Positions 13,957 through 46,858 of a stretch of DNA of 64,000 bases are shown in pieces. This stretch comes from Prevotella sp. oral taxon 475 (GTDB taxonomy: Bacteria; Bacteroidota; Bacteroidia; Bacteroidales; Bacteroidaceae): NCBI RefSeq assembly GCF_018127805.1, contig NZ_CP072334.1, positions 558,001 through 622,000 on the forward strand. Direction: 5' to 3'. The translations under genes were made by a program, and so were the position numbers. Numbering within the stretch: the stretch's first letter is position 1; each line of letters starts with the position of its first letter. The notes under the pieces are model-generated. The model was not told the DNA's origin, did not search any database, and saw nothing but the letters and a program-made list of their open reading frames with translations.

Positions 13957-14042
13957 CGCAAAAGCTAAGCTTTCGCATGCCCATCTCTTAGCTTTTGCAG
14001 GGCGTTTTCTTAGCTTTTGCACCCTAAAAGCTAAGAGATGGG
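13957..14042. repeat. 22-bp-period repeat element, copy 1
   Basis: Four copies of the core AAAAGCTAAG or its complement CTTAGCTTTT begin at 13960, 13987, 14009 and 14026. The two inverted cores are exactly 22 bp apart. A perfect 17-bp inverted repeat joins 13980-13996 and 14026-14042 (CCCATCTCTTAGCTTTT). It lies between the salvage-cluster terminator and the TonB-receptor promoter. Confidence 0.85.
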
Positions 14043-14130
14043 AAACTGGAGCGTATTTTTGCTCCCCGTCGAGCTTATAGACAGGCTGCGATAGGACTGT
14101 TAGCAGGAGGAAATATAACCATTTTTAGGT

Positions 14131-14162
14131 ATTGCTTTGTGTCGGTTGAATGACTAACTTTG
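14131..14162 (+). promoter_or_regulatory. Bacteroidota-type promoter for the TonB-receptor locus
   Basis: ATTG at 14131, a 20-bp spacer and TAACTTTG at 14155 match the -33/-7 consensus (TTTG, 19-21 bp, TAnnTTTG). Transcription would start near 14168, leaving a leader of about 25 nt. Confidence 0.75.
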
Positions 14163-14192
14163 CACACATATTGTATTGTTGGGGAAAACAGC

Positions 14193-17162
14193 ATGTTTAG
14201 AATCCACCTCATCATCCTGTTGTTCTTCGGGATGACCACTTCAGTATTGGCTCAAGGCGTCACCCTTTCGGGTGTAGTAACATCGCAGAAAGACGGGCAA
14301 GCGATAGAGTTTGCCACGGTGTTGCTGAAAGAAAGCGGACTTTGGGGTGTGTCAGACCGCAAAGGGCGATTCACGATCAAAAACGTGCCGACGGGCAAGA
14401 CTACGCTCACGGTACGGTGTTTGGGCTTTGCCACGCGTCAACTCACCGTTGTCGCGGGCGAGAACACGGGTTCTGTGCCCATCCGTTTGGATGAAGACAA
14501 TCTCAAACTCAATGAAGTGGAAGTGGTGGCCACCCGTAAACGCGATGAGGCCACAACCTCTTACACCATCGACCGCATGGCGTTGGACAACCGGCAGGTG
14601 CTCAATCTGGGCGACATCATGAGTCTGTTGCCGGGCGGGAAAACCTGGAATAGCACGTTGATGGACAACAGTCGCATCGCCCTGCGCAGCGATGGAGGCG
14701 AGAAAGGTAACGCCTCCTTCGGCACAGCGATAGAGGTAGACGGCGTAAGACTGAACAACAACGCCACACCGGGCGAGACCTTGGGGGCCGGAACGCGCAC
14801 CGTGGGTACGTCGAACATCGAAAGCGTGGAGGTGGTCACGGGCATCCCGTCGGTAGAATACGGCGATTTGAGCAACGGTATCGTCAAGGTGAATACACGA
14901 CGGGGCAAGTCGCCTTTCGTGGTGGAGGGCAAACTGAGCCAGCACACACGGCAAATAGCCTTGAACAAAGGCTTCGACTTAGGGCGAAACGCGGGACTTC
15001 TCAATCTGTCTCTCGAGCATGCACGATCGTTTTCAGACGTCGCCTCGCCCCATACGGCCTACCAACGCAACGCTTTCTCGCTGCACTACATGAACGTTTT
15101 CCTACGCACGGGGATGCCGTTGACGCTCAACGTCGGACTGACGGGCAACGTGGGGGGATATAATTCGAAAGCAGACCCCGACCAAAACCTGGAGAGCTAT
15201 GAGAAAAGACGCGACAATGCCTGGAGCGGGAATCTGTCGTTGGAATGGTTGCTGAATAGGAAATGGTTGACAAGTCTTTCGCTCAAAGCCTCTCTTTCGT
15301 ATGCAGACCGCTTCTACGAAGACTATTCGCACACGAGCAGTGCTTCCACTCAGGCTTATATTCACACCTTGGAGGAGGGCTATTTCGTCGCGGCCGACTA
15401 CGATAAAAATCCCACGTCGAACATCATTCTCGGGCCCACGGGCTACTGGTATGTACGCAGTTTCAACGACTCTAAGCCTCTTAGCTACGACCTCAAGCTA
15501 AAGGCCGATTGGACCAAACGCTTCGGCAGAGTGATGAGCAAGGCCCTTCTCGGGGCCGATTTCTCGGGAAGCAACAACCACGGACAGGGCACTTACTATG
15601 AGCATCCACGCTATACGCCCACGTGGAGACCCTTTCGATACAGCGATCAGCCTACAATGAACAACCTGGGGCTCTACGTTGAAGAGAAGATCGGCGTGCC
15701 TGTGGTGGCCGGTTCCACCTTTGAAATAACGGCAGGACTGCGCAACGATCTCACCTTCATCAGCGGTTCGGCTTATGGAACGGCATCGACGCTCTCGCCA
15801 CGCACCAACGCTCGCTATATCTTTTGGCAGGGAAGACAGGCTTGGATCAGCGATCTGAGTCTGCATGCAGGGTGGGGCAAGTCGGTGAAATTGCCCTCTT
15901 TCCAAGTGCTTTACCCCACAACCAGTTATCAAGATCGGCTCGCTTTTACGCCGGGAAGCACCGCTGCCAACAAGGCTTACTATGCCTATCACACCCATCC
16001 GTCGAAAGCCGTGTACAATCCCGACCTCAAATGGCAATCTACTCATCAAGTGGACGTGGGCTTCGAAGCCCGAGTGCGCGGCACACGCATCAACGTTTCG
16101 GCTTTCTATCACAAAACGTTCAACCCCTATATGGCCACCGTTGTCTACACGCCCTACAGCTATAAATACACCTCTCAGGCCGCTTTAGAGAGGATAGGCA
16201 TCCCTTCGGCCCACCGGAAATATAGCATCGACCGGCAGACGGGCATCGTTACGGTGACCGATGTCACAGGTGCCAAACCGCCGGTGCAGCTCGATTACAA
16301 GGTGCGCAACAGCTATTTGGTGAATCGGAAGTACGAAAACGGATCGCCCACAGAGCGTTACGGCTTGGAATGGATGGTGGATTTCACACCCATTAAGGCC
16401 CTTCGCACGTCGTTAAGACTGGATGGCAATTGTTATTTCTACAAGGGATTAGACGAGAAACTCTTTGCCGACATGCCTGCAGGAGTAGGTTCTACGATGA
16501 GTAATGGGCAACCTTACAGTTACATCGGCTATTATCGAGGTAGCAGTAACACCTCTACCGCCAACACGGCAAGTGCCTCTGTGAGCAACGGAAGCCTCTC
16601 TCGACAGGTCAATCTCAATGCCACCGTCACCACACACATCCCCCGAATCAGGATGATTGTTTCGCTAAGGGTGGAGAGTTCGCTGTATCAGTACAATCGT
16701 TCGCTGAGCGAACTGCGGCACGGAACTCGCGGATATGCCGTCGAAAAGGGCGAAGACTTCTTCGGAAAACCCTATACCCGCGATGTGAGAGATCGCTTTG
16801 TGGTGGTCTATCCCGAGTATTATGCCACCTGGGATGCCCCCGATCGACTGATACCTTTTGCCGAAAAGTTTGCTTGGGCAAAAGAGAACGACCGGCGATT
16901 GTACAACGACCTGGCCCGATTGGTAGTGCGTTCGAACTATGCTTATATGATGAATCCCAACCGGGTATCGAGTTATTGCGCTGCCACCATCAGTGCCACG
17001 AAAGAGATTGGCGACCATATCTCGGTGTCGTTCTATGCCAATAACTTCTGGGACACCCAGCAAAAGGTGCGCTCTTCACAAACGGGACTGGAGACATCTC
17101 TCTATGGCAGCGGTTATGTTCCATCGTTTTACTATGGTCTTTCGCTACGATTGAAACTCTGA
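14193..17162 (+). CDS. TonB-dependent outer-membrane receptor with carboxypeptidase-regulatory-like domain
   Basis: This is 989 residues from the ATG at 14193, which opens a signal peptide ending at SVLAQG. Residues about 23-105 form a CarboxypepD-reg-like beta domain (VTLSGVVTSQKDGQAIEFAT). The plug follows at about 130-245, with VDGVRLNNN and VEVVTGIPSVEYGD, then a 22-strand barrel ending in the outer-membrane-type FYYGLSLRLKL. The lack of an adjacent SusD argues against a glycan SusCD system. It heads a five-gene locus with a lipoprotein, a small tailed protein, and DUF4876 and DUF6850 proteins. The ligand is unknown; metal, heme or peptide are possibilities. A promoter is visible 30 bp upstream. 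Confidence 0.88.
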   Translation: MFRIHLIILLFFGMTTSVLAQGVTLSGVVTSQKDGQAIEFATVLLKESGLWGVSDRKGRFTIKNVPTGKTTLTVRCLGFATRQLTVVAGENTGSVPIRLDEDNLKLNEVEVVATRKRDEATTSYTIDRMALDNRQVLNLGDIMSLLPGGKTWNSTLMDNSRIALRSDGGEKGNASFGTAIEVDGVRLNNNATPGETLGAGTRTVGTSNIESVEVVTGIPSVEYGDLSNGIVKVNTRRGKSPFVVEGKLSQHTRQIALNKGFDLGRNAGLLNLSLEHARSFSDVASPHTAYQRNAFSLHYMNVFLRTGMPLTLNVGLTGNVGGYNSKADPDQNLESYEKRRDNAWSGNLSLEWLLNRKWLTSLSLKASLSYADRFYEDYSHTSSASTQAYIHTLEEGYFVAADYDKNPTSNIILGPTGYWYVRSFNDSKPLSYDLKLKADWTKRFGRVMSKALLGADFSGSNNHGQGTYYEHPRYTPTWRPFRYSDQPTMNNLGLYVEEKIGVPVVAGSTFEITAGLRNDLTFISGSAYGTASTLSPRTNARYIFWQGRQAWISDLSLHAGWGKSVKLPSFQVLYPTTSYQDRLAFTPGSTAANKAYYAYHTHPSKAVYNPDLKWQSTHQVDVGFEARVRGTRINVSAFYHKTFNPYMATVVYTPYSYKYTSQAALERIGIPSAHRKYSIDRQTGIVTVTDVTGAKPPVQLDYKVRNSYLVNRKYENGSPTERYGLEWMVDFTPIKALRTSLRLDGNCYFYKGLDEKLFADMPAGVGSTMSNGQPYSYIGYYRGSSNTSTANTASASVSNGSLSRQVNLNATVTTHIPRIRMIVSLRVESSLYQYNRSLSELRHGTRGYAVEKGEDFFGKPYTRDVRDRFVVVYPEYYATWDAPDRLIPFAEKFAWAKENDRRLYNDLARLVVRSNYAYMMNPNRVSSYCAATISATKEIGDHISVSFYANNFWDTQQKVRSSQTGLETSLYGSGYVPSFYYGLSLRLKL

Positions 17163-17192
17163 TTCCAACCCCTTGAAACCTCAAAAAGAAAG

Positions 17193-17594
17193 ATGACACA
17201 TCGTTATATATATAATAAGGTATACCCTCTCTTGCTTTTGGGCCTGCTCTTACTGCCAGTAGGCACCGCGTGCAGCTATGAAGAGCAGATGGAAACCTGT
17301 CCGGTGAGTGTGGCGTTGGTGTATCCGGCCAACACCATCGAGCCCTATCGCGGTGCAAGAGTGGAACTGAAAGACGCCACGGCCTCGATTTTTGTCGACT
17401 CGACCGATGCCTATGGGGTGGCACATTTCCGCGTTCCGCCCGGCATTTACGAGACAACGAGTTCGTCGACGCTCATCACCACCGATTGGAAATACTTCTT
17501 CAACGGGGTGAAAAGCATGATCATCATCTCGCCCGATAGCACCAATCGATTGCGATTGGAGCTGAGAATGTCGAAGAAAAGAATTGTTCATTAA
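17193..17594 (+). CDS. Small lipoprotein of the DUF4876/DUF6850 locus
   Basis: This 133-residue protein has a basic N terminus, a hydrophobic segment and the lipobox VGTAC, so it is probably lipidated at Cys27 or so. The mature part is a beta-rich domain (VALVYPANTIEPYRGARVEL, then FVDSTDAYGVAHFRVPPGIY) that resembles carboxypeptidase-regulatory or prealbumin-like folds. It starts 30 bp after the receptor stop and is likely co-transcribed. It may sit on the outer membrane beside the receptor as a surface subunit. No specific function can be stated. Confidence 0.75.
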   Translation: MTHRYIYNKVYPLLLLGLLLLPVGTACSYEEQMETCPVSVALVYPANTIEPYRGARVELKDATASIFVDSTDAYGVAHFRVPPGIYETTSSSTLITTDWKYFFNGVKSMIIISPDSTNRLRLELRMSKKRIVH

Positions 17595-17624
17595 CGAAAA
17601 TAGAAACCATCAAACCCAATGATT

Positions 17625-18134
17625 ATGAAGAAAATTGTATGTTTAACGCTGGCCTTTGCTGCCCTTTTGCTACTTCCCCGTGCAGCGTATGCCGAGGAAG
17701 AAGGCACCATTGAGGTGTCTTACCTTGTGGTTGTAGGGAGCGGAGGTAGTCAAACGGAGTTGGCTTTGGGTGACAATCCCATGCTTTCGTTCAAAAACGA
17801 TAGCGTCATTGTGACCTGCAACAGCAAGGAAATTATGTTCAATCTGTCTGAAGTGACCGACTATCACTTCATCACCAAAAAGGTGACAACGGGCATCAGC
17901 CACACGCCGAGCTTGTCCGACGCCACGGCCGAGCCTACTTTTACCCCCGATGATGCCACTTTCTCGGGATTGAAAGCGGGTACCCGAATTCTCGTTTTTA
18001 CGACAAACGGACAGCTCGTGACCACCATCCAGGCCGCAGAAGACGGTACGGCAAAGGTGAATCTTTCTCATCTGCCACGGGGTATCTACATCTTACGTGC
18101 ACCCGGAAAGAGCTTTAAAATACTGAATCGATAA
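17625..18134 (+). CDS. Small secreted protein with a T9SS type A-like C-terminal tail
   Basis: This is about 169 residues. Two in-frame ATGs lie at 17619 and 17625; the second gives the usual MKK start. A signal peptide ends near AAYAEE. The central part (MLSFKNDSVIVTCNSKEIMF, then LSEVTDYHF) is a beta repeat common in Prevotella secreted proteins. The last 55 residues match the type IX sorting-tail pattern: LKAGTRILVFTTNGQLVTTI, then LSHLPRGIYILRA and a short basic end. If it is a true tail, most of this protein is tail, so it may be a minimal surface protein or partner of the receptor. That is inference. Confidence 0.72.
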   Translation: MKKIVCLTLAFAALLLLPRAAYAEEEGTIEVSYLVVVGSGGSQTELALGDNPMLSFKNDSVIVTCNSKEIMFNLSEVTDYHFITKKVTTGISHTPSLSDATAEPTFTPDDATFSGLKAGTRILVFTTNGQLVTTIQAAEDGTAKVNLSHLPRGIYILRAPGKSFKILNR

Positions 18135-18187
18135 CAAAATCCATCGCCTCTCTCTACAGGGAAGAGGCTAAAAAACGAAAAATAACG

Positions 18188-19309
18188 ATGAAAAAATTTC
18201 TACTTTCTCTGCTCACCGCCACCGTTTTTGCCACTGGCAGTTGGGCACAAACCTGGAATATGGTTGTTACTCGTGAAGACGGAACCCAGGAAGTCATTCC
18301 CACCACGAAGGTGAAGAGCGTGAGTTTTCAGCTCCCCGACCAAAACGCCGACCAGCTCATCATCAAAGAAATCTACTGTGGCGGTTGCCCATTGGATGAA
18401 GGCGACGGCTATTTTCAGAAAGACAAAGGTTTTATTATCTATAACAACAGTTCGAAAGTCGTTGTAGCCAACAACTTAGCGGTAGCCATCGTCTCGCCGT
18501 TTAACTCCTATATCAAGACTAACAATTGGTATGTGGGGGGTAAACTCTCCTATGCCGACCAGCAATACATACCTGCCATTCATGGTATCTGGTGGTTTCA
18601 GTCGGCTTTGATTGTGCAACCTTATTCGCAAGTGGTAGTGAGCTGTCAGGGTAGTGTAGACAACACACAGACCTACAGCAAGTCTGTCAACTACGCCAAC
18701 AAAGACTATTACGCCATGTACGACCCCGAAAGCGGCTATGATGGCGAAAGCTGGTATCCCTCCCCTTCCGAATTGATCTCCACTTCGCATTACCTCAAAG
18801 CCAAAAGGATAGGACTGGGTATCGCATGGCCCTTGAGCGTAGGAGCACCCGGTCTGATTCTGTTCCATACAAAGGATGTGAAGCCGGCCGAGTTTGCCAA
18901 TAACGTGGCCAATGTGATCTATCCTCCGGGTGCAAAACAGACGGAAGTGAACGCTTGCTTCAAAATTCCCACCTCTTGGATTATCGATGGTGTGGAAGTG
19001 TATTCTACCCCTTCTAAGAGCCAAAACAAAAAACGTCTCACCTCGGAGATTGATGGTGGGGCAGTGTATCTCACCCCACAGAAAGGCCATACCCTTTATC
19101 GCAACGTCGACAAGACGGCTACAGAGGCTCTGCCAGAGAACGCAGGAAAACTGGTTTACACCTATACGATGGGCGTGACCACGGGAGATCCTAACAACAT
19201 CGATGCCGAAGCCTCCATCAAAAAAGGAGCACACATCGTGTATATGGACACCAATAATTCTACCGACGACTTCCACGAGCGCAAAGAATTCTCTATTCGC
19301 GGCAAGTGA
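18188..19309 (+). CDS. DUF4876-type secreted protein
   Basis: This 373-residue protein has a signal peptide ending at GSWAQT. A short N-terminal motif (MVVTREDGTQEVIPTTKVKS) precedes a lamin-tail-like beta domain: LIIKEIYCGGCP, KGFIIYNNSSKVV, NNLAVAIVSPF and, later, WIIDGVEVYS. This matches DUF4876 proteins found next to TonB receptors in Bacteroidota. No catalytic residues can be recognised. It is probably periplasmic or surface exposed and encoded in one operon with the receptor; the gap to the previous gene is 53 bp with a small hairpin. Its biochemical role is unknown. Confidence 0.75.
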   Translation: MKKFLLSLLTATVFATGSWAQTWNMVVTREDGTQEVIPTTKVKSVSFQLPDQNADQLIIKEIYCGGCPLDEGDGYFQKDKGFIIYNNSSKVVVANNLAVAIVSPFNSYIKTNNWYVGGKLSYADQQYIPAIHGIWWFQSALIVQPYSQVVVSCQGSVDNTQTYSKSVNYANKDYYAMYDPESGYDGESWYPSPSELISTSHYLKAKRIGLGIAWPLSVGAPGLILFHTKDVKPAEFANNVANVIYPPGAKQTEVNACFKIPTSWIIDGVEVYSTPSKSQNKKRLTSEIDGGAVYLTPQKGHTLYRNVDKTATEALPENAGKLVYTYTMGVTTGDPNNIDAEASIKKGAHIVYMDTNNSTDDFHERKEFSIRGK

Positions 19310-19393
19310 AAAGGCAGACCCCGGGAGAATCTCTCCCGAGGATGGCTTAACGGAAGACAAACGACTGATCATCAGACGTTTACAAAACCAATG

Positions 19394-19479
19394 GTAAAAG
19401 CTTAGCTTTTACGACCTAAAAGCTAAGAAAACGGACTGCAAAAGCTTAGAAAATGCAATGCAAAAGCTTAGCTTTTACC
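19394..19479. repeat. 22-bp-period repeat element, copy 2
   Basis: Cores AAAAGCTTAG or AAAAGCTAAG begin at 19396, 19418, 19440 and 19462, exactly 22 bp apart. The ends form a near-perfect 18-bp inverted repeat (GGTAAAAGCTTAGCTTTT). It sits in the 276-bp gap between the DUF4876 and DUF6850 genes. A separate imperfect hairpin (GACGAGGAGAG with CTCTCTCGTC) follows near 19508-19536 and has no T-run. Confidence 0.88.
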
Positions 19480-19585
19480 ATCCTACCTTTCAACGGGCAG
19501 TAGGCGGACGAGGAGAGATCTTACGCTCTCTCGTCCCGCCCATCTGTCCTATTCCTGCACATTCCACTCCCCTCACACCTCAAAA

Positions 19586-21208
19586 ATGACATTCCCAGCG
19601 AGCAAATACCTTCTGCAAGCGGCACTCTTGATGATGCCGGGCTTACTTTTGGCAAAGGGACGAGACGGCGCACAGGCGGCGTATCGCGATTTCAGGTTGA
19701 TTCAACAATCCGATGCATGGCTTACATCGGTCAATGCCGCCGGGCTCACCGCCTATCAATGGCGAAACATCTCCACGGCACAGGTGGATTGGAAGCTCAG
19801 CCAGGGCGACCTGGTCGACTATTTTCAGTCGGCCCACACGGTGCAGGCGGGAGCGCAGGTCGAGTCGTTCTATCGGCTGAACGCCCGTAGCGTGCTCTAC
19901 GGAAAGATGAGCTACGACAACTTCTCGGGACGAAACATGGTGGGTTCGGCTTTTATCGACCCCACACGAAAGCCGTTCGACCTCTCTGAAGACTCGCTCA
20001 CCAACAGCGGAAAGAAACATCGCGACACCTATCGCTTGGTGGGTGCTTTCGGCATCGACCTCTGGCGCGGACTCGCTTTTGGAGCAAAGGTCGACTATAC
20101 AGCGGCCAACTATGCCAAATACAAAGACCTGCGGCATCGCAACACGCTGATGGACATGAAGTTCTCTGTGGGCATCACCGCCCCCGTGGGTCGGTTGTTG
20201 CGCCTCGGGGCCAACTATTTTTATCGGCGAAGCACCGAGAGTCTGCGGTTCACCACGTATGGAAAAAGCGAAAAACCCTATCAGTCGCTCATCGATTATG
20301 CCGCCTTTATGGGCGAGGTGGAACAGCTGGGCAATTACGGTTTCACCGATCAAACCACCACACAACCCCTTGTAGACGAGTATAACGGCGGGGCTTTGCA
20401 GGTGGCTTTGCAAGCGGACCGGATGTCGTTTTTCAACAGTCTACAGGTCGTTCGCCGTCACGGCCATTACGGAAGAAACTCTCCCTATTCCATTCTTTAC
20501 ACCCATCACCGGGCCAACCTCTATGAATACCGCGGCGTTCTCTCACTGCACCGGGGGCACAACCTGCACCAACTGGCCCTGAATATCGACATCGAGAATC
20601 TCGAAAACCACAAAAACACCTACCGTAGTATGCTGAACGAGGCAGGGTCTACCTACTATGCCTACTACGATGCTGTGAAAATGGCCAACAAGGTTTGGAC
20701 AGAAGGCAGTTTGATTTACACCGCTTTCCTGGGCATTTGCGCGGAAAGATCCGTCTGGACGCTACAGGCCGGCATACGGTTCATGCAGCGAAAGCAAACC
20801 GCCTACCGATACCCTTACTTCCGGCGGCAGGACATCCGCCACACAGAACCCTTCGTTTCGGTGGAACGAAACATTCCGGTCGGCACGTCGTTGCTCACGA
20901 CTACCGTGGGGCTTGCCGCACTTTGGGGCAGCGGAGAGCCCTTTGTAGATGGCACTTTTGCCACGCCCTCCAATAAACAAAGTCCTCCACCAACGATGGA
21001 TGCTTATCTTTATCGCAACTATCACTGCCTCACCGCCCGGCAACAGGCTCTGTATGCCGCTCTGAAATATAGCTTCGTGGTGCCGGGTACGCTGTTTCCC
21101 GTCTATGCAAAGGCAGACTTCCATTGGCGACACACCCCACAATCCTCCCCTCTCCTGAACAATCAGCATCGCTCTCGCTTGCTCTTGGCCGTGGGATGCA
21201 TCTTCTAA
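19586..21208 (+). CDS. DUF6850-type outer-membrane beta-barrel protein
   Basis: This 540-residue protein has a signal peptide ending near LLLAKG. The rest alternates aromatic and polar residues in many amphipathic strands (YRLNARSVLYGKMSYDNFSG, VGITAPVGRLLRLGANYFYR) and ends LLLAVGCIF with a terminal Phe, as outer-membrane barrels do. It matches the DUF6850 barrels that accompany DUF4876 genes. It may be a channel or an anchor for the DUF4876 partner. It is separated from the upstream genes by a 22-bp-period repeat, so it could be expressed from its own promoter, although no -7 box was found. Confidence 0.75.
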   Translation: MTFPASKYLLQAALLMMPGLLLAKGRDGAQAAYRDFRLIQQSDAWLTSVNAAGLTAYQWRNISTAQVDWKLSQGDLVDYFQSAHTVQAGAQVESFYRLNARSVLYGKMSYDNFSGRNMVGSAFIDPTRKPFDLSEDSLTNSGKKHRDTYRLVGAFGIDLWRGLAFGAKVDYTAANYAKYKDLRHRNTLMDMKFSVGITAPVGRLLRLGANYFYRRSTESLRFTTYGKSEKPYQSLIDYAAFMGEVEQLGNYGFTDQTTTQPLVDEYNGGALQVALQADRMSFFNSLQVVRRHGHYGRNSPYSILYTHHRANLYEYRGVLSLHRGHNLHQLALNIDIENLENHKNTYRSMLNEAGSTYYAYYDAVKMANKVWTEGSLIYTAFLGICAERSVWTLQAGIRFMQRKQTAYRYPYFRRQDIRHTEPFVSVERNIPVGTSLLTTTVGLAALWGSGEPFVDGTFATPSNKQSPPPTMDAYLYRNYHCLTARQQALYAALKYSFVVPGTLFPVYAKADFHWRHTPQSSPLLNNQHRSRLLLAVGCIF

Positions 21209-21265
21209 GGTAGAGCTGTTCTATAAAATAGACCTATCGATAGGCATTCTCAAAAACTTTTTTCG

Positions 21266-21273: not shown

Positions 21274-21376
21274 TGCCTTGTTAGAAAACGCACTTTAAGG
21301 AACGAAAAAAGAACCTGTCGCCAAGGCTCTAACGGCTTTTTGGCGCACCAATCCGTAAATAAAACGAATCGCAATA

Positions 21377-26621: not shown

Positions 26622-26712
26622 GCCATCTCTTAGCTTTTGGCGTGCAAAAGCTAAGGAAACGCATGGCGAAAGCTAAGAAAACGACGCGCAAAAGCTTAGC
26701 TTTCGCGCGTCG
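26622..26712. repeat. 22-bp-period repeat element, copy 3
   Basis: Cores start at 26646 (AAAAGCTAAG), 26668 (GAAAGCTAAG) and 26690 (AAAAGCTTAG), each 22 bp apart, with an inverted CTTAGCTTTT at 26629. GC-rich ends (GCGCGC-type) flank it. It lies in the 413-bp divergent gap between msrAB and gpmA, where it cannot be a terminator of either neighbour. Confidence 0.85.
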
Positions 26713-26800
26713 TTATTATAAACGCTTGTCGATCATCGACTTGCAGACAGAGAAAGAAGGAAAAGAGAAGAACACTTTTTCTTGATCCCTATATGTAGGT

Positions 26801-32094: not shown

Positions 32095-32140
32095 TAGGTA
32101 GAAAGAAACGTGTTGATTTTCAGGTGTTTAGAAGATGCTT

Positions 32141-32225
32141 TGCAAAAGCTTAGCTTTTACACGTCAAAAGCTAAGAAAATGGCATGCAAAAGCTAAGAGA
32201 TGGGCGTGCGAAAGCTTAGCTTTTA
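32141..32225. repeat. 22-bp-period repeat element, copy 4
   Basis: Cores begin at 32144 (AAAAGCTTAG), 32166 (AAAAGCTAAG), 32188 (AAAAGCTAAG) and 32210 (GAAAGCTTAG), exactly 22 bp apart. The 12-bp spacers also look related: AAAATGGCATGC and AGATGGGCGTGC. It lies between the ABC genes and the beta-galactosidase gene. Confidence 0.9.
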
Positions 32226-32380
32226 AGAAGTAAGGAGGAAAGTAGTAAGTAGTAAGGAGGGAGGTAGTAAGGAGTAAGGAAGAAAGTAGTAAGAAGTAAG
32301 GAGGGGAATAGTAAGAAGTGAGGAGGGAAGTAGGAAGGAGTAAGAAGGGAAGAAATGGAGTGGGGAAGGAGCAAGGAGGG
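32226..32380. repeat. Polypurine tract of imperfect AGTAAGGAGG-type repeats
   Basis: About 150 bp are almost entirely A and G on the + strand apart from regular single T residues: repeats of AGTAAG, AAGGAGGGA and AAGTAGTAAG. It directly abuts the repeat element at 32225. It is too degenerate to be protein coding and is followed by the beta-galactosidase promoter region. Strand-asymmetric tracts like this arise by slippage. Confidence 0.8.
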
Positions 32381-35715: not shown

Positions 35716-35831
35716 CAGAGCCATTTCTATGTGAGTTCGAGCTATGTTGGGGATGTTCTTATGCCAACTATCCCATAGGAACGCTTTTCTCGTTCTTCTT
35801 AGCTCCTTCCTACTCTTCTCCTTTCTTCTCT

Positions 35832-35910
35832 ATCTCTTAGCTTTTGCACCCCATTTTCTTAGCTTTTGAGTTGTAAAAGCTAAGAAAATGGGGTGCAAAA
35901 GCTAAGAGAT
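35832..35910. repeat. 22-bp-period repeat element, copy 5: perfect inverted repeat with 36-bp arms
   Basis: Arms 35832-35867 and 35875-35910 are perfectly complementary over 36 bp with a 7-nt loop (GAGTTGT). Each arm holds two cores 22 bp apart (35836 and 35858; 35875 and 35897). It lies in the 310-bp convergent gap between the beta-galactosidase and der genes, where the hairpin could end transcription from either side. The remainder of the gap shows nothing else. Confidence 0.95.
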
Positions 35911-36025
35911 GGGAATACGTTTTCTAAGCGCCTGATTTCCAGCTATATATAAAGAGGGTTCCTTTCTGCCGGATAGAAACGCTTCATCTCGTCGAACTTG
36001 TTGATGAGACTCCTGCAAAGCAGGT

Positions 36026-39528: not shown

Positions 39529-39534
39529 TTTGTT

Positions 39535-40068: not shown

Positions 40069-40076
40069 TTGGTGTG

Positions 40077-40084
40077 CAAAGTTA
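40077..40084 (-). promoter_or_regulatory. Probable -7 box (TAACTTTG) of the DUF177-rpmF-fabH operon
   Basis: On the - strand TAACTTTG ends 9 bp before the DUF177 ATG. No TTTG lies 19-21 bp further up, so the -33 element is missing or weak. Confidence 0.45.
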
Positions 40085-40291
40085 CAAAGATTTTCTGATA
40101 TGTGGAGACGAGACCGCAAAAAAATTATCTCTGTGTGATGTCAAAACCGCAAACAGCACGGCAGACATAAGTCTTTTGAAAGAGCCAAACGAACGGGCGC
40201 AACTTATTGACGCGGGACGCGTAACGCCGCAGATGTTTAAGTATATGATAAGTCGTTGCGTATCAATATTTTAGAAATTGATTTTCAAACA

Positions 40292-40367
40292 CTTAGCTTT
40301 TACCTTGCATTTTCTTAGCTTTTACACTCCCAACTCTTAGCTTTTGCACGTCGTTTTCTTAGCTTTT
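40292..40367. repeat. 22-bp-period repeat element, copy 6
   Basis: Four cores CTTAGCTTTT start at 40292, 40314, 40336 and 40358, all in one orientation and exactly 22 bp apart. Unlike the other copies it has no inverted arm, so it is a plain tandem array. It lies in the 409-bp gap between the SusD gene and the DUF177 operon; the rest of the gap shows no gene. Confidence 0.9.
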
Positions 40368-40477
40368 GTAAAGCCAGGGCACAAAAGACGATGGCGAAAG
40401 GGAGAGCAACGGTATCTCATTGAAACGAAATGGGGCGAATGAAACACCGACGATGCGAGGCCTTTTTGCCAGAGCGA

Positions 40478-42106
40478 TCAGAACGCGCTGTTGGGTTGGA
40501 GGCGTTTGTTGGCCCCGATAGCGCGGTTGGGAATAGGGAAAAGGGTGGTATGGCCGTTGCTTTCGCCAGTCAAGGGCGTGCGTAGGTCGTAGGCTTGGGT
40601 GAACTTCGAGAAGCGAATCAGGTCTTGTCGGCGCCAACCTTCCCACATCAGCTCGAGTAGACGCTCGGCGAGGATGTTGTCGAGGGTGGCTGTTCGCGGC
40701 CCCATTCCTGCCCGGGCACGCACGAGATGCAGCTCAGCGTCGCCGTTTTGCCCGTTGCGCACCTTGGCTTCTGCCAGCATCAGCAGTACGTCGGCATAGC
40801 GATAGAGCACGATGTCGTTGTCTTGCAGTTTGCCGTCGAAGAAGGCTTTGCGGTCGATTTCATATTTGCTCATCCGCGCGCCGGCTGTTTTGATGTAGCG
40901 AGAGGCCGACAAGTTGCACTGTACTTCAAGAGGTTGGTAGACGAGCGGTGTGCCGTCGTCGAGCCGAACGGTGTCGCCGTCTACAAGAATCGTGTCCGAA
41001 TAGAAGTTCAGCGCATAGCGATGGTCCACCTGCGGGGTGCCGTAGCCAAAGGCGCGGACGGTGGAAAGCGTGGCGCAGGCTCCGTTTTCGGAACCCAGTC
41101 CGAGGGCCTTGCCATGGTGATAATTGCGCGAGCGAAAGAGGTATTGATATTGGTTGGCATAGAGATGCTTGTCCATGGGGATGGTAAAGATGTTCTCAGC
41201 CGAGTTCTCATTGTGGATCTTGAAATTGTCGGCATAGTTGTTTTCGAGTCGATAGCCCAGGTCGGCGATTCGGTTGCAGTAGTGAATTACGGTTTGCCAG
41301 GCATTCATCTGCACGCCGTTCACGGTGAAATAGATGTCGCGCCCGGCCTTTCGGGCTGTGGTCGTGGGGTTATCGCAACTGAAGACCTCGGCGTTGAGGG
41401 CCAGTTTGGCCAGCAGGAAATAGGCCACAGGACGTGTCAGCCGGCCATAATAGTTGCCCATGTGGTGGGAAGGGGTAGGGGCGAGCTGCGGAGCAACGGT
41501 CTGTAATTCGTCGAAAGCAAAACTGAATACCTCGCTGCGACGGGTGTTCGTCACCCGGTTCACCTTACTTTCGGGTGCGGTGAGCAGTGGTACGTTGCCG
41601 AAAAGATCGATCAGATAATAGTAGAACATCGCCCTGATGGCACGCACTTCGGCCCGATAGCTCTCGTATTGGCCGGTGGTGAGGAGCGAACGGTGCTTGT
41701 CGAGTCTGCCGAGGGCATCGTTGCAGAGCACAACCACTTTGTAGAGATAACACCAAAGGGTGTAAAGCTCCTGGTCGTCGGCACTCCATTCGTGGCGGTA
41801 AAGGCGTTGCCAGAAGCCGCCATCGTACCAGTCGGCCCCGCGAATAGGGATGATGGCCTCATCGGTGGTAAAGGTGTTGTAGTCGTAAACACCGCGATAG
41901 GTGCCTTGAAGTCCGTTGCCATCGGCCTCGCCACCGATGTAATTGTAGAGCTCTCCGACGGTGTTGAGATACAAACTGGCGGGCGAATCGAAGACCTGCG
42001 CTTCCGAAAGACGGTCGCGAGGCTGGTCGTCGAGACATGAGAAGAGCCCCGGTCCAATGGTCAACAGAATAGCTGTGAGCGTGAAAAGAGACTTGACGGA
42101 ACGCAT
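40478..42106 (-). CDS. SusD/RagB-type outer-membrane lipoprotein (orphan pair)
   Basis: This is a 542-residue protein with a signal peptide and lipobox GLFSC (Cys near residue 24). SusD hallmarks are the N-terminal DDQPRDRLSEAQVF, the helical AIRAMFYYYLIDLFGNVPLL near residue 150, and the C-terminal LAERLLELMWEGWRRQDLIRF. It caps the neighbouring SusC barrel on the cell surface and binds the incoming ligand. The gene follows SusC after 25 bp. No glycosidase, sulfatase or regulator gene lies near, so the ligand is open. Confidence 0.92.
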   Translation of the reverse strand: MRSVKSLFTLTAILLTIGPGLFSCLDDQPRDRLSEAQVFDSPASLYLNTVGELYNYIGGEADGNGLQGTYRGVYDYNTFTTDEAIIPIRGADWYDGGFWQRLYRHEWSADDQELYTLWCYLYKVVVLCNDALGRLDKHRSLLTTGQYESYRAEVRAIRAMFYYYLIDLFGNVPLLTAPESKVNRVTNTRRSEVFSFAFDELQTVAPQLAPTPSHHMGNYYGRLTRPVAYFLLAKLALNAEVFSCDNPTTTARKAGRDIYFTVNGVQMNAWQTVIHYCNRIADLGYRLENNYADNFKIHNENSAENIFTIPMDKHLYANQYQYLFRSRNYHHGKALGLGSENGACATLSTVRAFGYGTPQVDHRYALNFYSDTILVDGDTVRLDDGTPLVYQPLEVQCNLSASRYIKTAGARMSKYEIDRKAFFDGKLQDNDIVLYRYADVLLMLAEAKVRNGQNGDAELHLVRARAGMGPRTATLDNILAERLLELMWEGWRRQDLIRFSKFTQAYDLRTPLTGESNGHTTLFPIPNRAIGANKRLQPNSAF

Positions 42107-42131
42107 GATGAGGGGATTTGCAGGTGTGATG

Positions 42132-44852
42132 TCAGAACTGTATGCTCATGCCAAGCGAGAAAGAGCGGTAGGGAGGGTAAGAACGCTTGTCGTCGATGCC
42201 TAACGTGTTGTTCACCACATGACTGTTGATGATGGGCGTTAGTCCGCTGTAGGCAGTGAGTGTAGCCAGATTGTTGACGCTGAAAGAAAGTCGCAGCGCA
42301 CTGATATAACGCGAAACGACGGGCAGATTGTAGCCCACGGTGAGGTAATCGAAGTTGAGATAGTCGCCCGGTTCAAGCCAATAGTCAGTGGCAGTTTGGT
42401 CTTTGATATTGCGTGTCGGGGCCTCTGCCAGTACGTTATAGTCGGGAAAACTGCCCATATTCATGTAGGTGAGCGACGTTCCGTTGTAAATCTTATGCCC
42501 GAAAGCCCCGTTCAGCTGGATGGCTACATCCCAATGGCGGTATCGAAAGCTGATGTTCGATCCCAATGAAGCCTTTGGAACGGCTTGTCCGGCCACATAT
42601 CGGTCGCCGCCATCTTCGAGATTGATACGTCCGTTGTGGTCTAAATCGGCGCAAACATACCGATAAGACCCATCGGGGGCTTGCTCTAAACCGGTGCAAT
42701 GAGGAAGATAGAACACGCCAAGCGGCTGACCTACGATTTGATAAACAATGTTGTTGTGCCCTCCATGCATGCCGGCACCATTGAGAGAACCCACCGGTGT
42801 GATATCGGGCGATGAGAGATACTCGTCGCCATACTTGCCGCTGAGCGAGAGCAATCGGTTCTTTTGCATCGAGAGATTGAGGTTTACGCTGAGTTCCAGG
42901 TCGTGTTTGCGAATCAGATCTACCCCTAATCCCAGTTCGAAACCACTGTTACTCATGCTTCCGATGTTGGCAAACAGCTTGTTGAAAGCAAACGGAGGCA
43001 CACTTACATCATAGTTATAGAGCATGTCTGTGGTCTTTGATGCATAGTATTCGGCATAGAGATGCAGTCGGTTATCGAAGAGTCCGGCTTCAAGACCGAT
43101 GTTAAACGAACTCCGAGTCTCCCATTTCAGATTGGGATTGACGTTCTTCAGCAGGCCTTGCGTTACCGTTGGCACGCCATAATAAGGCACAACGCCGTTG
43201 GGCATCAAAGCATAGAGAGCATTGTAGGCCGTGATTCCGCCGAGATTTCCCGATCGTCCGTAGCTTGTTCTCAGTTTGAGGAGGTTGCAATGTCGCAGGT
43301 TTCGTAGCCAAGGCTCTTGCTGAACGTTCCACTCAAGGCCAACCGACGGAAAATAACCCCAGGTGTTGTTGTCGCCCACTAATGAAGAACCATCGGCCCG
43401 AAGACTCAAGGATGCCACATAACGGTCCAGCAACGTATAGTTCAAATGCCCCATCAGCGAGGCGAGCGACGGCGATTCGTATCCGCTTCCCGTACCTCCG
43501 TAAGGATGAATGTTGCCTGCCATGAGGTTGTTATAGCCGTAATCGTTATTGACAAAGCCGCGAACGGTGGTGTAAAAGTTCTGCCGTCGACTCTTCTGAT
43601 ACTCCGAATGGGCGGTAAACGCTAAGGCATGAACGCCCCATGTGCGGTGATAGACGAGCTGAAAGCTGCCCAAGAGGTCTTCCATCTTTGACTCTCGGCG
43701 ATAAGCTCTGCCGTGTGCTTCGGTCCAGGTGGGTTGAAATTGCGCGTTCTCCATCGAGTTATAAGAATAAGAACCGAAGATTTTGGCGGTCAGATGCTTG
43801 GCCAAGGCAAAGTCAAACGTGACGTGTGTGTTGAGGTTCAGCCCCCGTTCGTCGTCCTTTTGTAGCAAAAGAGCCATCGGATGGGCAATTTGTGAGGCCA
43901 GCGTGTTGACATCCCAGCCGCCCGAAGCGTTGCGATGAGCAGAGAAAGTGGGGTTTTGCGAGGCGGCAGAGTAGAACAACCTCTGCGTGTCGAATATCTT
44001 TTTGTTGGCCAAGGACGAGCCGAACACGCCGAAGTTGATGGTGAGCCAATGGTCGAAAGCCTGCTGCATGAGATCGAATTTTGCTGTAAAATTGCGATAT
44101 TCGTTGGCTTTCACCGGCATTTGATGTTCCATAATGCTCACCGAGGCACGGTAGTTGGCTTGTTCATTGCCACCTGTAAAGGCCAGATGATGGTTCTGAA
44201 TGAAACCTGTTCGGGTGATGGCGGCGGGGAAATCGTTGTCTTCACCACCGTCGTTATAGCTCAATCCCCGCGTTCGAGCTGTCGAAATATATCCCTCTCG
44301 GTCCAACATCTCGAGGTTTTTATACACCGATTCGAAGCCGATATTTCCGTCGTAAGAGATGCGAAACTGCCCTTTCAGTCCTTGAACGGTCGTAACGAGG
44401 ATGACGCCCGATGCCCCTCGCGAACCGTATTGAGCCGTTTCCGAAGCATTTTTCAACACTTTGAACGACAGAATGTCGGCCGGATAGATGGTAGACAGCG
44501 TGGCAATATCGCTCGAAACGCCATCGATCACCACCAAAGGGTCGTTTCCGCCGGTGAGAGAAGTCGTTCCGCGCACCCGCACACTGTTGAGCATGGCCTG
44601 CCGTTGGTCGCCTCCGCGCGACACGTTCACACCCGGAAGTCGACCGTTTAAGGCGTCGAGAGGATTCAGAATGAGCCCTTTGTTGCTCCAACCGTCAAGG
44701 GTTTTTCGGATGATCGCCTGAGATTGACCTGTCAACAGACTGTCTTTCGCCACGGGAGCGAGCCTTTTCGGAACCTCCAAACCCGTCTGTGCCGCTCCAT
44801 CGAGAGGACAAACGACTGCCAAGAAACTGAGAAAAAGGGAGAACAACTTCAT
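42132..44852 (-). CDS. SusC/RagA-type TonB-dependent transporter (orphan pair)
   Basis: This is 906 residues from the ATG at 44852, which begins a signal peptide ending DGAAQT. The plug starts almost at once (NPLDALNGRLPGVNVSRGGD, VRVRGTTSLTGGNDPLVVID, ASETAQYGSRGASGVILVTT), so the usual N-terminal carboxypeptidase-like domain of SusC proteins is absent. The barrel is complete and ends RSFSLGMSIQF. It works with the SusD protein downstream. It lies 88 bp after the FMN-binding protein gene with no promoter box seen, so read-through from the mrp-FMN transcript is possible. Confidence 0.92.
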   Translation of the reverse strand: MKLFSLFLSFLAVVCPLDGAAQTGLEVPKRLAPVAKDSLLTGQSQAIIRKTLDGWSNKGLILNPLDALNGRLPGVNVSRGGDQRQAMLNSVRVRGTTSLTGGNDPLVVIDGVSSDIATLSTIYPADILSFKVLKNASETAQYGSRGASGVILVTTVQGLKGQFRISYDGNIGFESVYKNLEMLDREGYISTARTRGLSYNDGGEDNDFPAAITRTGFIQNHHLAFTGGNEQANYRASVSIMEHQMPVKANEYRNFTAKFDLMQQAFDHWLTINFGVFGSSLANKKIFDTQRLFYSAASQNPTFSAHRNASGGWDVNTLASQIAHPMALLLQKDDERGLNLNTHVTFDFALAKHLTAKIFGSYSYNSMENAQFQPTWTEAHGRAYRRESKMEDLLGSFQLVYHRTWGVHALAFTAHSEYQKSRRQNFYTTVRGFVNNDYGYNNLMAGNIHPYGGTGSGYESPSLASLMGHLNYTLLDRYVASLSLRADGSSLVGDNNTWGYFPSVGLEWNVQQEPWLRNLRHCNLLKLRTSYGRSGNLGGITAYNALYALMPNGVVPYYGVPTVTQGLLKNVNPNLKWETRSSFNIGLEAGLFDNRLHLYAEYYASKTTDMLYNYDVSVPPFAFNKLFANIGSMSNSGFELGLGVDLIRKHDLELSVNLNLSMQKNRLLSLSGKYGDEYLSSPDITPVGSLNGAGMHGGHNNIVYQIVGQPLGVFYLPHCTGLEQAPDGSYRYVCADLDHNGRINLEDGGDRYVAGQAVPKASLGSNISFRYRHWDVAIQLNGAFGHKIYNGTSLTYMNMGSFPDYNVLAEAPTRNIKDQTATDYWLEPGDYLNFDYLTVGYNLPVVSRYISALRLSFSVNNLATLTAYSGLTPIINSHVVNNTLGIDDKRSYPPYRSFSLGMSIQF

Positions 44853-44940
44853 CGGATAGGGATTTAAATGAGGTTGACGGGCTACCCGCAACACAGCATC
44901 GATAGGCCGCAAGGAGGCCCGTCGGAGTGGGAAAGCAGCG

Positions 44941-45342
44941 TTATTTCTTTTTCTTATAATACGCTAAACCGGCCTGTACGTTCTTAATCAGCGCGTTAGA
45001 CGAGAACGTGGCACCGCTCACGGCATCTGGTTCGGTCTTGGCAGCCTTAGCCATGGGCTTTCCTTCCCAAGCTGCGAGGATGGCTTTGGCCCGTTCGAAG
45101 AACTTGGGTGTTTCGCGATTGGGCAACGCTTCCACCCGAATCACCTTGTTGTTCTTGATGTAAATCTTCACAGGCGTTGTGCCTTTAAATCCTTTAACGT
45201 CTCGTGTCAGCTCGGTGGTGTTGATAATGGTCACACCATTTTCGGTTGTCAGCACTTCGTCGTGCTGCACGGCACTGGTTAAAAACGTAAGAATGGGCAC
45301 CGCCGATAAAGCAAAGAGCAGTCCAAGCAGTATTCTTTTCAT
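44941..45342 (-). CDS. Exported FMN-binding domain protein
   Basis: This is 133 residues from the ATG at 45342. The N-terminal signal or anchor (MKRILLGLLFALSAVPILTF) is followed by one FMN_bind domain. DAVSGATFSSNALI near residue 105 contains the DxxSGAT flavinylation site, where ApbE attaches FMN to Thr. It resembles the domain of the membrane protein at 50634-51716 (same DAVSGATFSS and a related VKGFKGTTPVKIYI segment), so the two probably belong to one extracytosolic electron-transfer chain. It lies 98 bp downstream of mrp and upstream of SusC. Confidence 0.88.
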   Translation of the reverse strand: MKRILLGLLFALSAVPILTFLTSAVQHDEVLTTENGVTIINTTELTRDVKGFKGTTPVKIYIKNNKVIRVEALPNRETPKFFERAKAILAAWEGKPMAKAAKTEPDAVSGATFSSNALIKNVQAGLAYYKKKK

Positions 45343-45440
45343 ATCTCTTCTGTATAATGTTATTTTCTGTTGACTATATATAAGGTATCGCGCGCGCACG
45401 AAGTCCCGAATATTCCGGTAAAGAACGAGAAGCAAAACCG

Positions 45441-46544
45441 CTATCGATTCACCTGCACAATCTGCGTTGGAGCCTGCTCTTTGTTACGTCTGTTGGTGAC
45501 AGTGACCACTGCTTGCGCCAGATTGATGAACGCCTGTCCTGTCATCGTTTCCACATCGAGTGCGGCAGGCGTACCTTGATCACCGTTCTCACAGATGCTT
45601 TGCACGATAGGAATCTGCGCCAAGAGGGGCACATGCATCTCTTCGGCCAAACGTTTGCAGCCCTCTCGCCCGAAGAGATAGTAGCGATTCTCGGGCAATT
45701 CGGCAGGAGTGAACCAAGCCATATTCTCGATGAGGCCGAGAATGGGCACGTTCACCTTCTCGTTGCGGTACATATCGATACCTTTTCGTGCATCGGCCAG
45801 AGCCACATCTTGCGGCGTACTCACAATCACCGCTCCCGTAATGGCGAGCGTCTGCAAGAGTGTGAGGTGTATATCGCTGGTTCCCGGCGGTGTGTCGAGG
45901 ATAAAGAAGTCGAGTTCGCCCCAGTTGGCGTCGGCGATGAGCTGTTTGAGCGCATTCGAAGCCATGCTGCCGCGCCATAGCGTAGCCGTCTCTTTGCCGA
46001 CGAAAAAGCCGATGCTGAGTAGCTTGACGCCATATTTCTCGACAGGCTCGATCAAGTCGCGGCCGTCTATCTGCGTGGCATAGGGGCGCGCTCCTTCCAC
46101 ATCGAACATCTTTGGCATAGAAGGTCCGAAGACATCGGCATCCAACAGTCCCACCCGATAGCCCAGTTTGGCCAGTGCAATGGCCAAATTGGCCGAGACG
46201 GTGCTCTTTCCTACGCCCCCCTTTCCCGAACTCACGGCGATGATATTCTTCACCTGCGGCAGGAGTTTGCCCACCTCGGGCCGGGGTTTCGAGGCGAATT
46301 CGGTTTTGATTTCCACCTCGATGTCTTTGCTGATGTGATAGTGCAGGGCTGCCTCAGTGGCTTTGAGGGTAGACTTGAGAAAAGGATCGGTCTCTTTGGG
46401 AAAGAGCAATGTGAAGCTCACCTTCATCCCGTCGATGCGCACATCGTCTGCCAACATGCCGCTCTCGATCAGGTTTTTCTTCGTACCCGGATACATCACC
46501 GTGGCCAAGACATCTGTAATCAGTTTCGGATATAATGTTATCAT
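45441..46544 (-). CDS. mrp: Mrp/ApbC-type iron-sulfur carrier P-loop ATPase
   Basis: This is 367 residues with an N-terminal MIP18/DUF59 domain (1-90) and a MinD-like ATPase with deviant Walker A SSGKGGVGKSTVS near residue 104, LLDADVFGPSMPKMF, and FFILDTPPGTSDIHLTLLQ. Mrp proteins deliver Fe-S clusters to apoproteins. The usual CxxC pair after ENMAWF is replaced by ENMAWFTPAELPENRYYLFG, so the cluster-bridging cysteines are missing. A clear promoter precedes the gene at 46566-46597. The FMN-binding protein gene follows. Confidence 0.93.
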   Translation of the reverse strand: MITLYPKLITDVLATVMYPGTKKNLIESGMLADDVRIDGMKVSFTLLFPKETDPFLKSTLKATEAALHYHISKDIEVEIKTEFASKPRPEVGKLLPQVKNIIAVSSGKGGVGKSTVSANLAIALAKLGYRVGLLDADVFGPSMPKMFDVEGARPYATQIDGRDLIEPVEKYGVKLLSIGFFVGKETATLWRGSMASNALKQLIADANWGELDFFILDTPPGTSDIHLTLLQTLAITGAVIVSTPQDVALADARKGIDMYRNEKVNVPILGLIENMAWFTPAELPENRYYLFGREGCKRLAEEMHVPLLAQIPIVQSICENGDQGTPAALDVETMTGQAFINLAQAVVTVTNRRNKEQAPTQIVQVNR

Positions 46545-46565
46545 CTTTTTTCAATTAAAGTTATG

Positions 46566-46597
46566 CAAAAATAACGATATTCTAAGGACAGAGCAAA
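46566..46597 (-). promoter_or_regulatory. Promoter of mrp
   Basis: On the - strand TTTG (46597-46594), exactly 20 bp, then TATTTTTG (46573-46566): a full match to the Bacteroidota consensus. The leader is about 15 nt. Confidence 0.85.
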
Positions 46598-46797
46598 TAA
46601 ATAGCCGAAATAAAAGCGGAGCGGCCCGTTGGGCACCTCCTTGCAGGATTTCGGCAGTGGTGTTGCTCGTTGTTGGCACTGGCTTCATTGGACTTTAACG
46701 GCGCCAGCGAAAATCCCTCGAAAGCGGCAACGCCCCCACTCATCCTCCCAACCATCAGCAAGGGCATGCCAAAAGGCAGCCTTTTAGCCGCCATTTT

Positions 46798-46858
46798 CTT
46801 AGCTTTTAGGATGCAAAAGACAAGAAAATGGGTTGCAAAAAGTGGTCTTTTGCAACCC
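46798..46858. repeat. Degenerate copy of the 22-bp-period repeat, copy 7
   Basis: One intact core (CTTAGCTTTT, 46798) is followed by a mutated one (AAAAGACAAG, 46815) and then AAAATGGGTTGC, the usual spacer. A hairpin GGGTTGCAAAA (46830) with TTTTGCAACCC (46848) ends it. It lies in the 560-bp gap between mrp and the HMA gene. Confidence 0.7.

Follow-up and report, generated by a model that had tools for sequence, protein, structure and literature searches.

Plasmid R6K carries iterons of 22 bp, and direct repeats with helical spacing are reported for BldC. REP and BIME sequences, which are associated with RAYT transposases, are many dispersed intergenic palindromic repeats whose sequence is species-specific. 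Among the papers listed in literature searches, none was seen to describe short-period arrays of the kind reported here in Prevotella or Bacteroides, and the nearest system was BrickBuilt, a MITE/minisatellite of Porphyromonas gingivalis. BrickBuilt is described as occupying 19 loci, with a unit of 23 nt present in 1 to 22.8 copies and with a leader and a tail whose terminal repeats resemble the ends of IS5-family elements (PMC4596501).

Anatomy and register of the arrays

The initial annotation of the window (the whole stretch of 64,000 nucleotides analysed in this study) described a family of intergenic elements with an exact 22-bp period, and this family is real and wider than was claimed. 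The core AAAAGCTWAG with at most one mismatch had 35 matches in the window, whereas 100 shuffles averaged 7.9 matches and never exceeded 16. Exact pairs of two cores separated by 12 bp numbered 265 in the whole genome (146 forward and 119 reverse; control 0 and 0), and the figure extrapolated for this genome is about 160 arrays. In a 464-kb sample of the genome, which was picked partly where the genome-wide core-pair search had matches and is hit-biased, 154 of 155 gaps of at most 200 bp between neighbouring centres were multiples of 22 bp (22 bp 151 times and 44 bp three times), and the remaining one was 120 bp. The family is thus neither limited to a few copies nor irregularly spaced. Rfam models at gathering scores had 0 matches in the window.

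Four units were present in 46 of the 56 sampled arrays (range 2-5), and relaxed scoring of the same 56 gave four units in 42, five in eight, six in five and two in one. Six elements of the window have four units in register (Table 1), and array 7 has only one exact core, is missed by the array finder and shows its four units (AAAAGGCAGCCTTTT, ATTTTCTTAGCTTTT, AAAAGACAAGAAAAT and AAAAAGTGGTCTTTT) only when read in register. The spacing implied by a core and a 12-bp spacer was borne out, with the small correction that a 15-bp unit with CTWAG at its centre and a 7-bp GCANTGC-like spacer describe the repeat better. One half of the motif served to detect the arrays, and conservation of its letters is therefore partly built in. 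Outer half-sites are distinct from inner ones: GTTTT-type half-sites made up 1/92 of the outer and 91/276 of the inner positions (p=2e-12), and CATCTCT-type half-sites 27/92 of the outer and 18/276 of the inner (p=9e-8). When spacers of the sample were compared, those of the same array agreed at 4.24 of 7 letters and those of different arrays at 4.19 of 7. Since spacers are no more alike within than between arrays, tandem duplication or slippage is not what keeps the units alike in the window's genome.

The elements had been placed only between genes, in tandem, convergent and divergent gaps, and the larger sample agrees, as 55 of 56 arrays lie between genes (26 in tandem, 15 in divergent and 14 in convergent gaps) and the 56th lies ahead of the first gene of its stretch, according to our own crude gene caller, whose calls lack at least one real gene, that of a RAYT. 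Array orientation shows no relation to transcription, with 11 arrays running along with it and 11 running against it. The serine-hydrolase gene beside array 1 is PBP4B-like, with a score under the curated cut-off. Of the 56 sampled arrays, 34 have a palindrome at one end or at both, at a distance of about 25-26 bp or one unit more; these palindromes were scored by a fixed pattern, and a profile scan was dropped because it came to match purine repeats and the array units themselves. A single DNA pattern tried on the flanking sequence yielded no match.

Table 1. Arrays and adjoining features in the window, with positions counted from its first letter.
Feature	Position	Strand	Context
Array 1, four units	13960..14040	.	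Between serine-hydrolase gene and SusC-like TonB receptor gene
Palindrome, TTTGTAA-N5-TGANNNTCA-N5-TTACAAA type	19354..19386	.	15/20 letters; centre 26 bp from array 2
Array 2, four units	19396..19476	.	Between DUF4876 and DUF6850 genes
Array 3, four units	26624..26704	.	Divergent gap, MsrA/MsrB gene and histidine phosphatase gene
Palindrome	26715..26747	.	Flanks array 3; 15/20 letters
Palindrome, weak	32102..32134	.	Flanks array 4; 14/20 letters
Array 4, four units	32144..32224	.	Between ABC transporter gene and LacZ-type beta-galactosidase gene
Purine-rich 22-bp tandem repeat, 5.9 copies	32224..32352	.	Directly adjoins array 4
Array 5, four units	35831..35911	.	Inverted halves with 36-bp perfect arms; convergent gap, lacZ-type gene and der
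Palindrome	35921..35953	.	Flanks array 5; 16/20 letters
Palindrome	40245..40277	.	Flanks array 6; 15/20 letters
Array 6, four same-orientation units	40287..40367	.	Between YceD and SusD genes
Array 7, degenerate	46771..46851	.	Four units in register; upstream of Mrp/NUBPL-type gene

Arrays with the same period in related genomes

The exact core pair is rare in the genus, being found in 5 of 397 other genomes (raw tallies of this pair, and of the Bacteroides-type pair, count the own genome too). When 779 kb from 32 other Prevotella genomes were scanned without a motif, a 22-bp period with other motifs was found in 20 of the 32. Self-match at lag 22 was seen in 40 regions compared with at most 21 at other lags from 10 to 60, save the double lag of 44 with 26. 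An open frame of at least 150 codons holds six of these 40 regions, and consensus units were dyad-like in 23 of 39 (24% expected). In a placement scan, lag 22 accounted for 62 intergenic regions and for 0 in called genes, while no other lag between 12 and 32 reached more than 20. Its sample omitted 11 species that had lacked any lag-22 region and was enlarged by G203, G334 and further stretches from species already known for arrays, and the counts show placement, not frequency. Two stretches of G014 were selected for matches. Among viral contigs, one matched the core pair, a match that was inspected only.

Array positions are common to P. brunnea and the window's genome in part only. Three arrays of the window lie in the conserved YceD-to-Der block and at the ABC-transporter pair, and the finder, which would overlook degenerate arrays, detected none at these places in P. 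brunnea. A close relative of G016 was looked for as a partner in an empty-site comparison and not found.

Bacteroides-like genomes hold arrays in which the unit TAAAGC-N3-GCTTTA occurs three or four times. Seven of nine genomes have an array at one Bacteroides-type locus that was approached through the neighbouring gene, and the arrays of G618, G603, G613 and G639 were known beforehand while those of G641, G633 and G573 were not. In an alignment count, the AAAGC/GCTTT arms of these same-locus arrays differ from the consensus at 2 of 210 letters and their spacers differ widely. The 0 of 240 arm differences counted in Bacteroides arrays are partly built in, the arrays having been found by the arms themselves, and the Bacteroides arrays in the gap, phasing, core-pair and unit-number sets were located in the same way. 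One Bacteroides array used as a query drew a single match, to a replicon of B. finegoldii that is labelled a plasmid, and none to a phage; viral contigs gave no match to the Bacteroides core pair. Intrinsic DNA curvature was considered as a common denominator of all these arrays and rejected: A/T-tract phasing (second harmonic), which would speak for bending, was 0.83 against a null of 0.59 in the window's genome, but only slight in Bacteroides (0.82 against 0.75) and equal to the null in other Prevotella (0.69 against 0.69).

Possible function and alternative explanations

The model that we tentatively favour is that the arrays are four-site sets for a putative dimeric, sequence-specific DNA-binding protein that would act cooperatively, on the DNA level, at transcription-unit boundaries. 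Site centres 22 bp apart would be separated by two turns and face the same side of the helix, on which the putative dimer may load cooperatively. The arrays would lie mainly at boundaries between transcription units, where a probable role is that of bidirectional roadblocks or insulators, and/or points of chromosome organisation. We infer protein binding, cooperativity and boundary function alike; the exact register, four units, free spacers, distinct outer and inner half-sites and orientation independent of transcription all argue for binding. The earlier proposal of sites for a cooperative DNA-binding protein is partly supported and is the best-supported one, with the protein itself putative. 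Arrays of the same design with other letters in relatives hint at an unrecognised kind of protein-binding site. It is a more doubtful suggestion that they form a Bacteroidaceae-wide class of boundary elements with four dyad sites at two-turn spacing, in which the specificity of a putative reader would shift by species and more than 100 sites per genome would be rewritten together, with period, site number and intergenic placement fixed. Such elements could be likened to bacterial insulators whose reader evolves along with them.

A less probable alternative, though one that deserves serious attention, is that the arrays are intergenic repeats of a MITE-like or minisatellite-like kind that disperse and serve the host in no way, in line with the mobile palindromic repeat named as the other option in the initial annotation. 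In this reading the four-unit body and the flanking palindrome would reflect the needs of a putative transposase or recombinase. The random orientation relative to genes, the partly different positions in P. brunnea and the near-fixed distance of the palindrome are consistent with this, as is the rumen Prevotella G203, in which several arrays are near-identical tandem copies and look like recent tandem copying. However, free spacers with an intact register are unlike the decaying remnants of a recent master, and the number of units is kept near four. Recent copying of whole arrays was not evident at the top of the identity distribution, where the closest pair agreed at 73 of 81 letters and lay inside the unit-shuffled null (maxima 68-77), though similar pairs were in modest excess. 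Because mean pairwise identity (55.9) was above the null (53.4) and 18 pairs reached 69 of 81 letters where 4.3 were expected, some common ancestry of the arrays is possible on these comparisons.

It is unlikely that the arrays act at the RNA level, as tandem hairpins at transcript ends that would be bidirectional terminators or 3'-end stabilisers; this explanation is good for Bacteroides and poor for the window's genome. At Bacteroides-type loci, which had been selected for holding arrays, gaps of at least 40 bp held an array in 10/16 convergent, 9/63 tandem and 0/18 divergent cases (p=3e-5 for convergent and 0.02 for divergent). In each of the 19 Bacteroides-type arrays the folding z lay below -2, with an average near -5. 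A complementary core pair was present in 7 of 13 non-orthologous arrays where 2.8 would be expected (p=0.005), and a count of adjacent pairs only gave 5 where 2.3 would be expected (p=0.06). At one locus G629 shows, by eye, a T-tailed hairpin in the place where seven relatives carry the array. Bacteroides-like arrays look like 3'-end elements. However, 15 arrays of the window's genome are in divergent gaps, and although over half of all 46 four-unit arrays fold with z below -2, opposed units are absent in 28 of the 46, whose mean z was -0.8 and -1.0. T-runs did not follow arrays as a rule in the flanks looked at, and a stable hairpin followed by a T-run at a transcript end was not the pattern of these arrays. 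The view that a terminator role alone is insufficient is thus upheld for the window's genome.

Mobilisation as REP sequences (BIME-like) by RAYTs is highly improbable and membership was rejected. The window's genome does have two Y1_Tnp (PF01797) proteins; the gene of one has two arrays in its neighbourhood, at about 0.6 kb and 1.2 kb, and that of the other has a variant array at a distance of about 1.1 kb. However, a different palindromic repeat, CCGCGTAGCGG ... GTTGGTCTGTT, immediately surrounds both genes and is the natural REP candidate, the nearest array is more than 600 bp off, 28 of 46 arrays lack opposed units, and the majority consensus drawn from 213 units lacks the GTAG or CGTC tag that is reported at one end of REP sequences.

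Should the arrays prove to be binding sites, an abundant chromosomal element with a putative reader would be common to Prevotella and Bacteroides, and the constant 22-bp period with a changing motif raises the testable question of whether there is one fast-evolving reader. Should they be no more than repeats, they would offer a clear example of a family kept at near-fixed number and spacing.

Comparison with known systems

The arrays resemble REP and BIME sequences in being dispersed, intergenic, palindromic in type and species-specific, but differ in their four-unit, 22-bp register and in that another repeat surrounds the RAYT genes of the window's genome. The Bacteroides-type arrays have in common with bidirectional intrinsic terminators their location in convergent gaps and a potential to form hairpins, whereas a GC-rich stem with a T-run is not the rule in the arrays and divergent gaps are used in the window's genome. 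BrickBuilt is also an intergenic family of short-period direct repeats with imperfect units in the order Bacteroidales. Membership was nevertheless rejected, as spacing is 22 and not 23 bp, four units are the rule and not 1 to 22.8, arrays are far more numerous by extrapolation, units are dyad-like and spacers are free. The anatomy is like that of helically phased iteron and operator arrays, with conserved sites repeated at whole-turn spacing. The present arrays differ from these in being chromosome-wide in many unrelated gaps, in a motif that changes among species and in a reader that is putative.

Structure of the arrays in the own genome

The seven intergenic elements described in the window by the initial annotation proved to be genuine, with 35 core matches compared to 7.9 expected and a maximum of 16 in 100 shuffles. 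When read in register, each of the seven spans 81 bp and comprises four 15-bp units and three 7-bp spacers, and the six clear elements have CTWAG as the unit centre and spacers of the GCANTGC type. A genome-wide search for core pairs 22 bp apart found 146 plus 119 exact pairs in the single 2,560,308-base contig of this genome and none with a reversed-pattern control. A 464-kb sample, made up of the window and 20 stretches selected partly for hits, held 56 arrays, of which 46 had four units, six had three, three had two and one had five. Neighbouring centres no more than 200 bp apart in this sample were separated by 22 bp 151 times, by 44 bp three times and by 120 bp once, which upholds the exact spacing claimed earlier. 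Since the sample contains 91 of the 265 core pairs, about 160 arrays are expected in the whole genome by extrapolation.

AAAAGCT was the commonest half-site (200 of 426), followed by GTTTTCT (62), ATTTTCT (44), CATCTCT (34) and GAAAGCT (28). The second half varies by position: GTTTT-type halves were found in 1 of 92 outer compared to 91 of 276 inner halves, and CATCTCT-type halves in 27 of 92 outer compared to 18 of 276 inner halves. The array therefore has defined ends and is not an open-ended minisatellite. The same register often extends into the flanks, as either a palindrome or a purine-rich 22-bp repeat. The palindrome is of the type TTTGTAA-N5-TGANNNTCA-N5-TTACAAA, with its centre 25-26 bp beyond the array; 33 palindromes in the sample scored at least 15 of 20 compared to none in an equally long first-order Markov sequence. 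With the threshold lowered to 14, one palindrome accompanied 31 of the 56 arrays and two accompanied three, and a purine flank was found at 16 of the 56 at the threshold used. In P. brunnea, the palindrome was present by eye at no fewer than three of four printed array loci, where the units are for the most part full palindromes. The window also holds a further 22-bp tandem repeat of unrelated sequence at 60569-60628 (GAGAGGTGACCTCCCGATATGC, 2.7 copies).

Slippage was ruled out in this genome, as spacers differ inside arrays as much as between them (4.24 identities of 7 within an array, 4.19 between arrays). Recent copying of whole arrays was not evident, with the closest pair (73/81) inside the unit-shuffled null range of 68-77, although 18 array pairs reached at least 69/81 identity compared to 4.3 expected.

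Features associated with the arrays and RAYT-type genes
Feature	Position	Description
Element 7	window 46771-46851	degenerate copy, four-unit frame retained
Purine-rich 22-bp tandem repeat	window 32224-32352	adjoins array 4
RAYT-type Y1_Tnp gene	G000:C1:44270-44611	own genome, stretch L250
RAYT-type Y1_Tnp gene	G000:C1:1098172-1098513	own genome, stretch L251

Placement and RNA folding

With a crude gene caller, 26 arrays of the own genome lay in tandem, 15 in divergent and 14 in convergent gaps, and one convergent gap with two arrays actually contains a RAYT gene that the caller missed. Of the 97 tandem gaps of at least 150 bp, 26 held arrays, as did 15 of the 31 divergent and 13 of the 27 convergent gaps of this size. 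Polar arrays in tandem gaps ran along transcription in 11 cases and opposite to it in 11. The mean fold z of all 46 four-unit arrays was about -3, with 52% and 59% below -2, whereas the 28 of these 46 without opposed units averaged -0.8 on one strand and -1.0 on the other. Folding thus cannot account for all arrays, which agrees with the earlier argument that a terminator role alone is insufficient, and a 3'-end role is not attractive in this genome.

Arrays in other genomes

The exact core pair was found in five of the 397 other genomes of the genus, which is Prevotella as GTDB defines it, with 116 matches in P. brunnea, 17 in a rumen Prevotella and three, two and one in G334, G014 and G326. 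Among named genomes, the triple-core pattern occurred in 32 stretches, which came from P. brunnea and from three MAGs assigned to a rumen Prevotella, Prevotellaceae and Desulfamplus. A motif-free scan counted 33-bp windows that matched their own sequence, shifted by a set lag, at 22 or more positions, and was applied to 40 stretches (779 kb) from 32 other Prevotella genomes. Lag 22 yielded 40 regions and the double lag of 44 yielded 26, and each remaining lag between 10 and 60 gave no more than 21; when three-unit support was required, 28 remained at lag 22 and at most nine at any of the other lags between 12 and 30. At least one lag-22 region was found in 11 of the first 12 genomes (G014 among them chosen for hits) and in nine of the next 20, though some single regions may be due to chance because other lags average about seven regions each. 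An open frame of at least 150 codons covers 6 of the 40 regions, and dyad-like consensus units were found in 23 of 39 compared to 24% by chance. The sequences are genome-specific, such as AAAGGTAACCTTT in G148, TTCCAGCCCCTGGAA in G141, AAAAGTACGTACTTTT in G099, AAAACCTACGCTTTT in G108 and TCCCAACGTGGGA in G074, among others. Other Bacteroidales families (20 genomes, 273 kb, partly masked) gave two regions at lag 22 and three at lag 23. Two of these three are arrays of one 23-bp motif (TCACAAGTTTGTCAGTTTTTA) in G053 (L098:8225-8309 and 9627-9761), possibly a 23-bp counterpart of the 22-bp arrays.

A pair of the generic dyad AAAG-N5-CTTT spaced by 22 bp was present in 49 of 249 family genomes (the own genome included) and 7 of 22 genera, with controls mostly at zero and never above five per strand. 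One genus with large genomes (g27) is taken to be Bacteroides because the array in its genome G639 shares 99% identity with an array of a B. finegoldii record. Its unit is TAAAGC-N3-GCTTTA, and the 19 arrays examined had four units in 11 cases and three in eight at the threshold used. At a locus reached via a neighbouring gene, the gene was present in 9 of 20 genomes and the array lay directly past its stop codon in seven of the nine; G629 has a T-tailed hairpin there by eye, and the array is absent from G615. Across all seven genomes, the AAAGC/GCTTT arms of three units are by our count off consensus by two letters in total, and both loops are widely divergent. The first spacer between dyads is inverted across species: AGACTGGAT in G618 (L253) is letter for letter the reverse complement of ATCCAGTCT from G613 (L257) and G573 (L258), and when reversed it matches the spacer of G603, a 94%-identical neighbour, at 7 of 9 letters. 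The G618 spacer therefore looks flipped, as if a hairpin-mediated or recombinase-mediated process acted within arrays. Among gaps of at least 40 bp, Bacteroides-type arrays were present in 10 of the 16 convergent ones, in 9 of the 63 tandem ones and in none of the 18 divergent ones, and this preference makes a 3'-end role attractive there. Arrays also recur in homologous regions of these genomes (L231, L235, L238, L240, L246); the B. finegoldii record matching L240 has DUF3987, DUF4248, DNA-binding protein and amidase genes annotated there.

Proposed protein binding, possible mobility and the RAYT genes

The initial annotation had proposed sites for a cooperative DNA-binding protein. The intact register, free spacers, near-fixed number of units, distinct ends and strand indifference are as expected if a dimer binds cooperatively along one helix face, although the reader protein itself was not found. 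Placement at the edges of transcription units suggests a roadblock, insulator or nucleoid role. The alternative is that the arrays are a mobile repeat, which accounts for their positional turnover. P. brunnea is about 65-78% identical to the own genome in DNA where aligned, and, judging by coordinates, no fewer than two sampled arrays apparently occupy a gap that holds one in both genomes (L105/L055 and L124/L045), while others do not; its YceD-to-Der block and ABC-transporter pair are conserved without the three arrays found at their edges in the window. However, a mobile repeat leaves unexplained why, at individual loci, the arms persist longer than the spacers.

At L251:271-421 lies a variant array whose units, AAAAGGATAGCTTTC and AAAGGTGTCCTTTC among them, are spaced 22 bp apart; it is followed by sequence like the flanking palindrome and then by a gene for an HU-HIG DNA-binding protein. 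Both RAYT-type genes sit among another palindromic repeat family (CCGCGTAGCGG ... GTTGGTCTGTT ... CAGGGTTGG ... GCCTACCCTG), and together with these palindromes they likely represent the REP/RAYT system of this genome.
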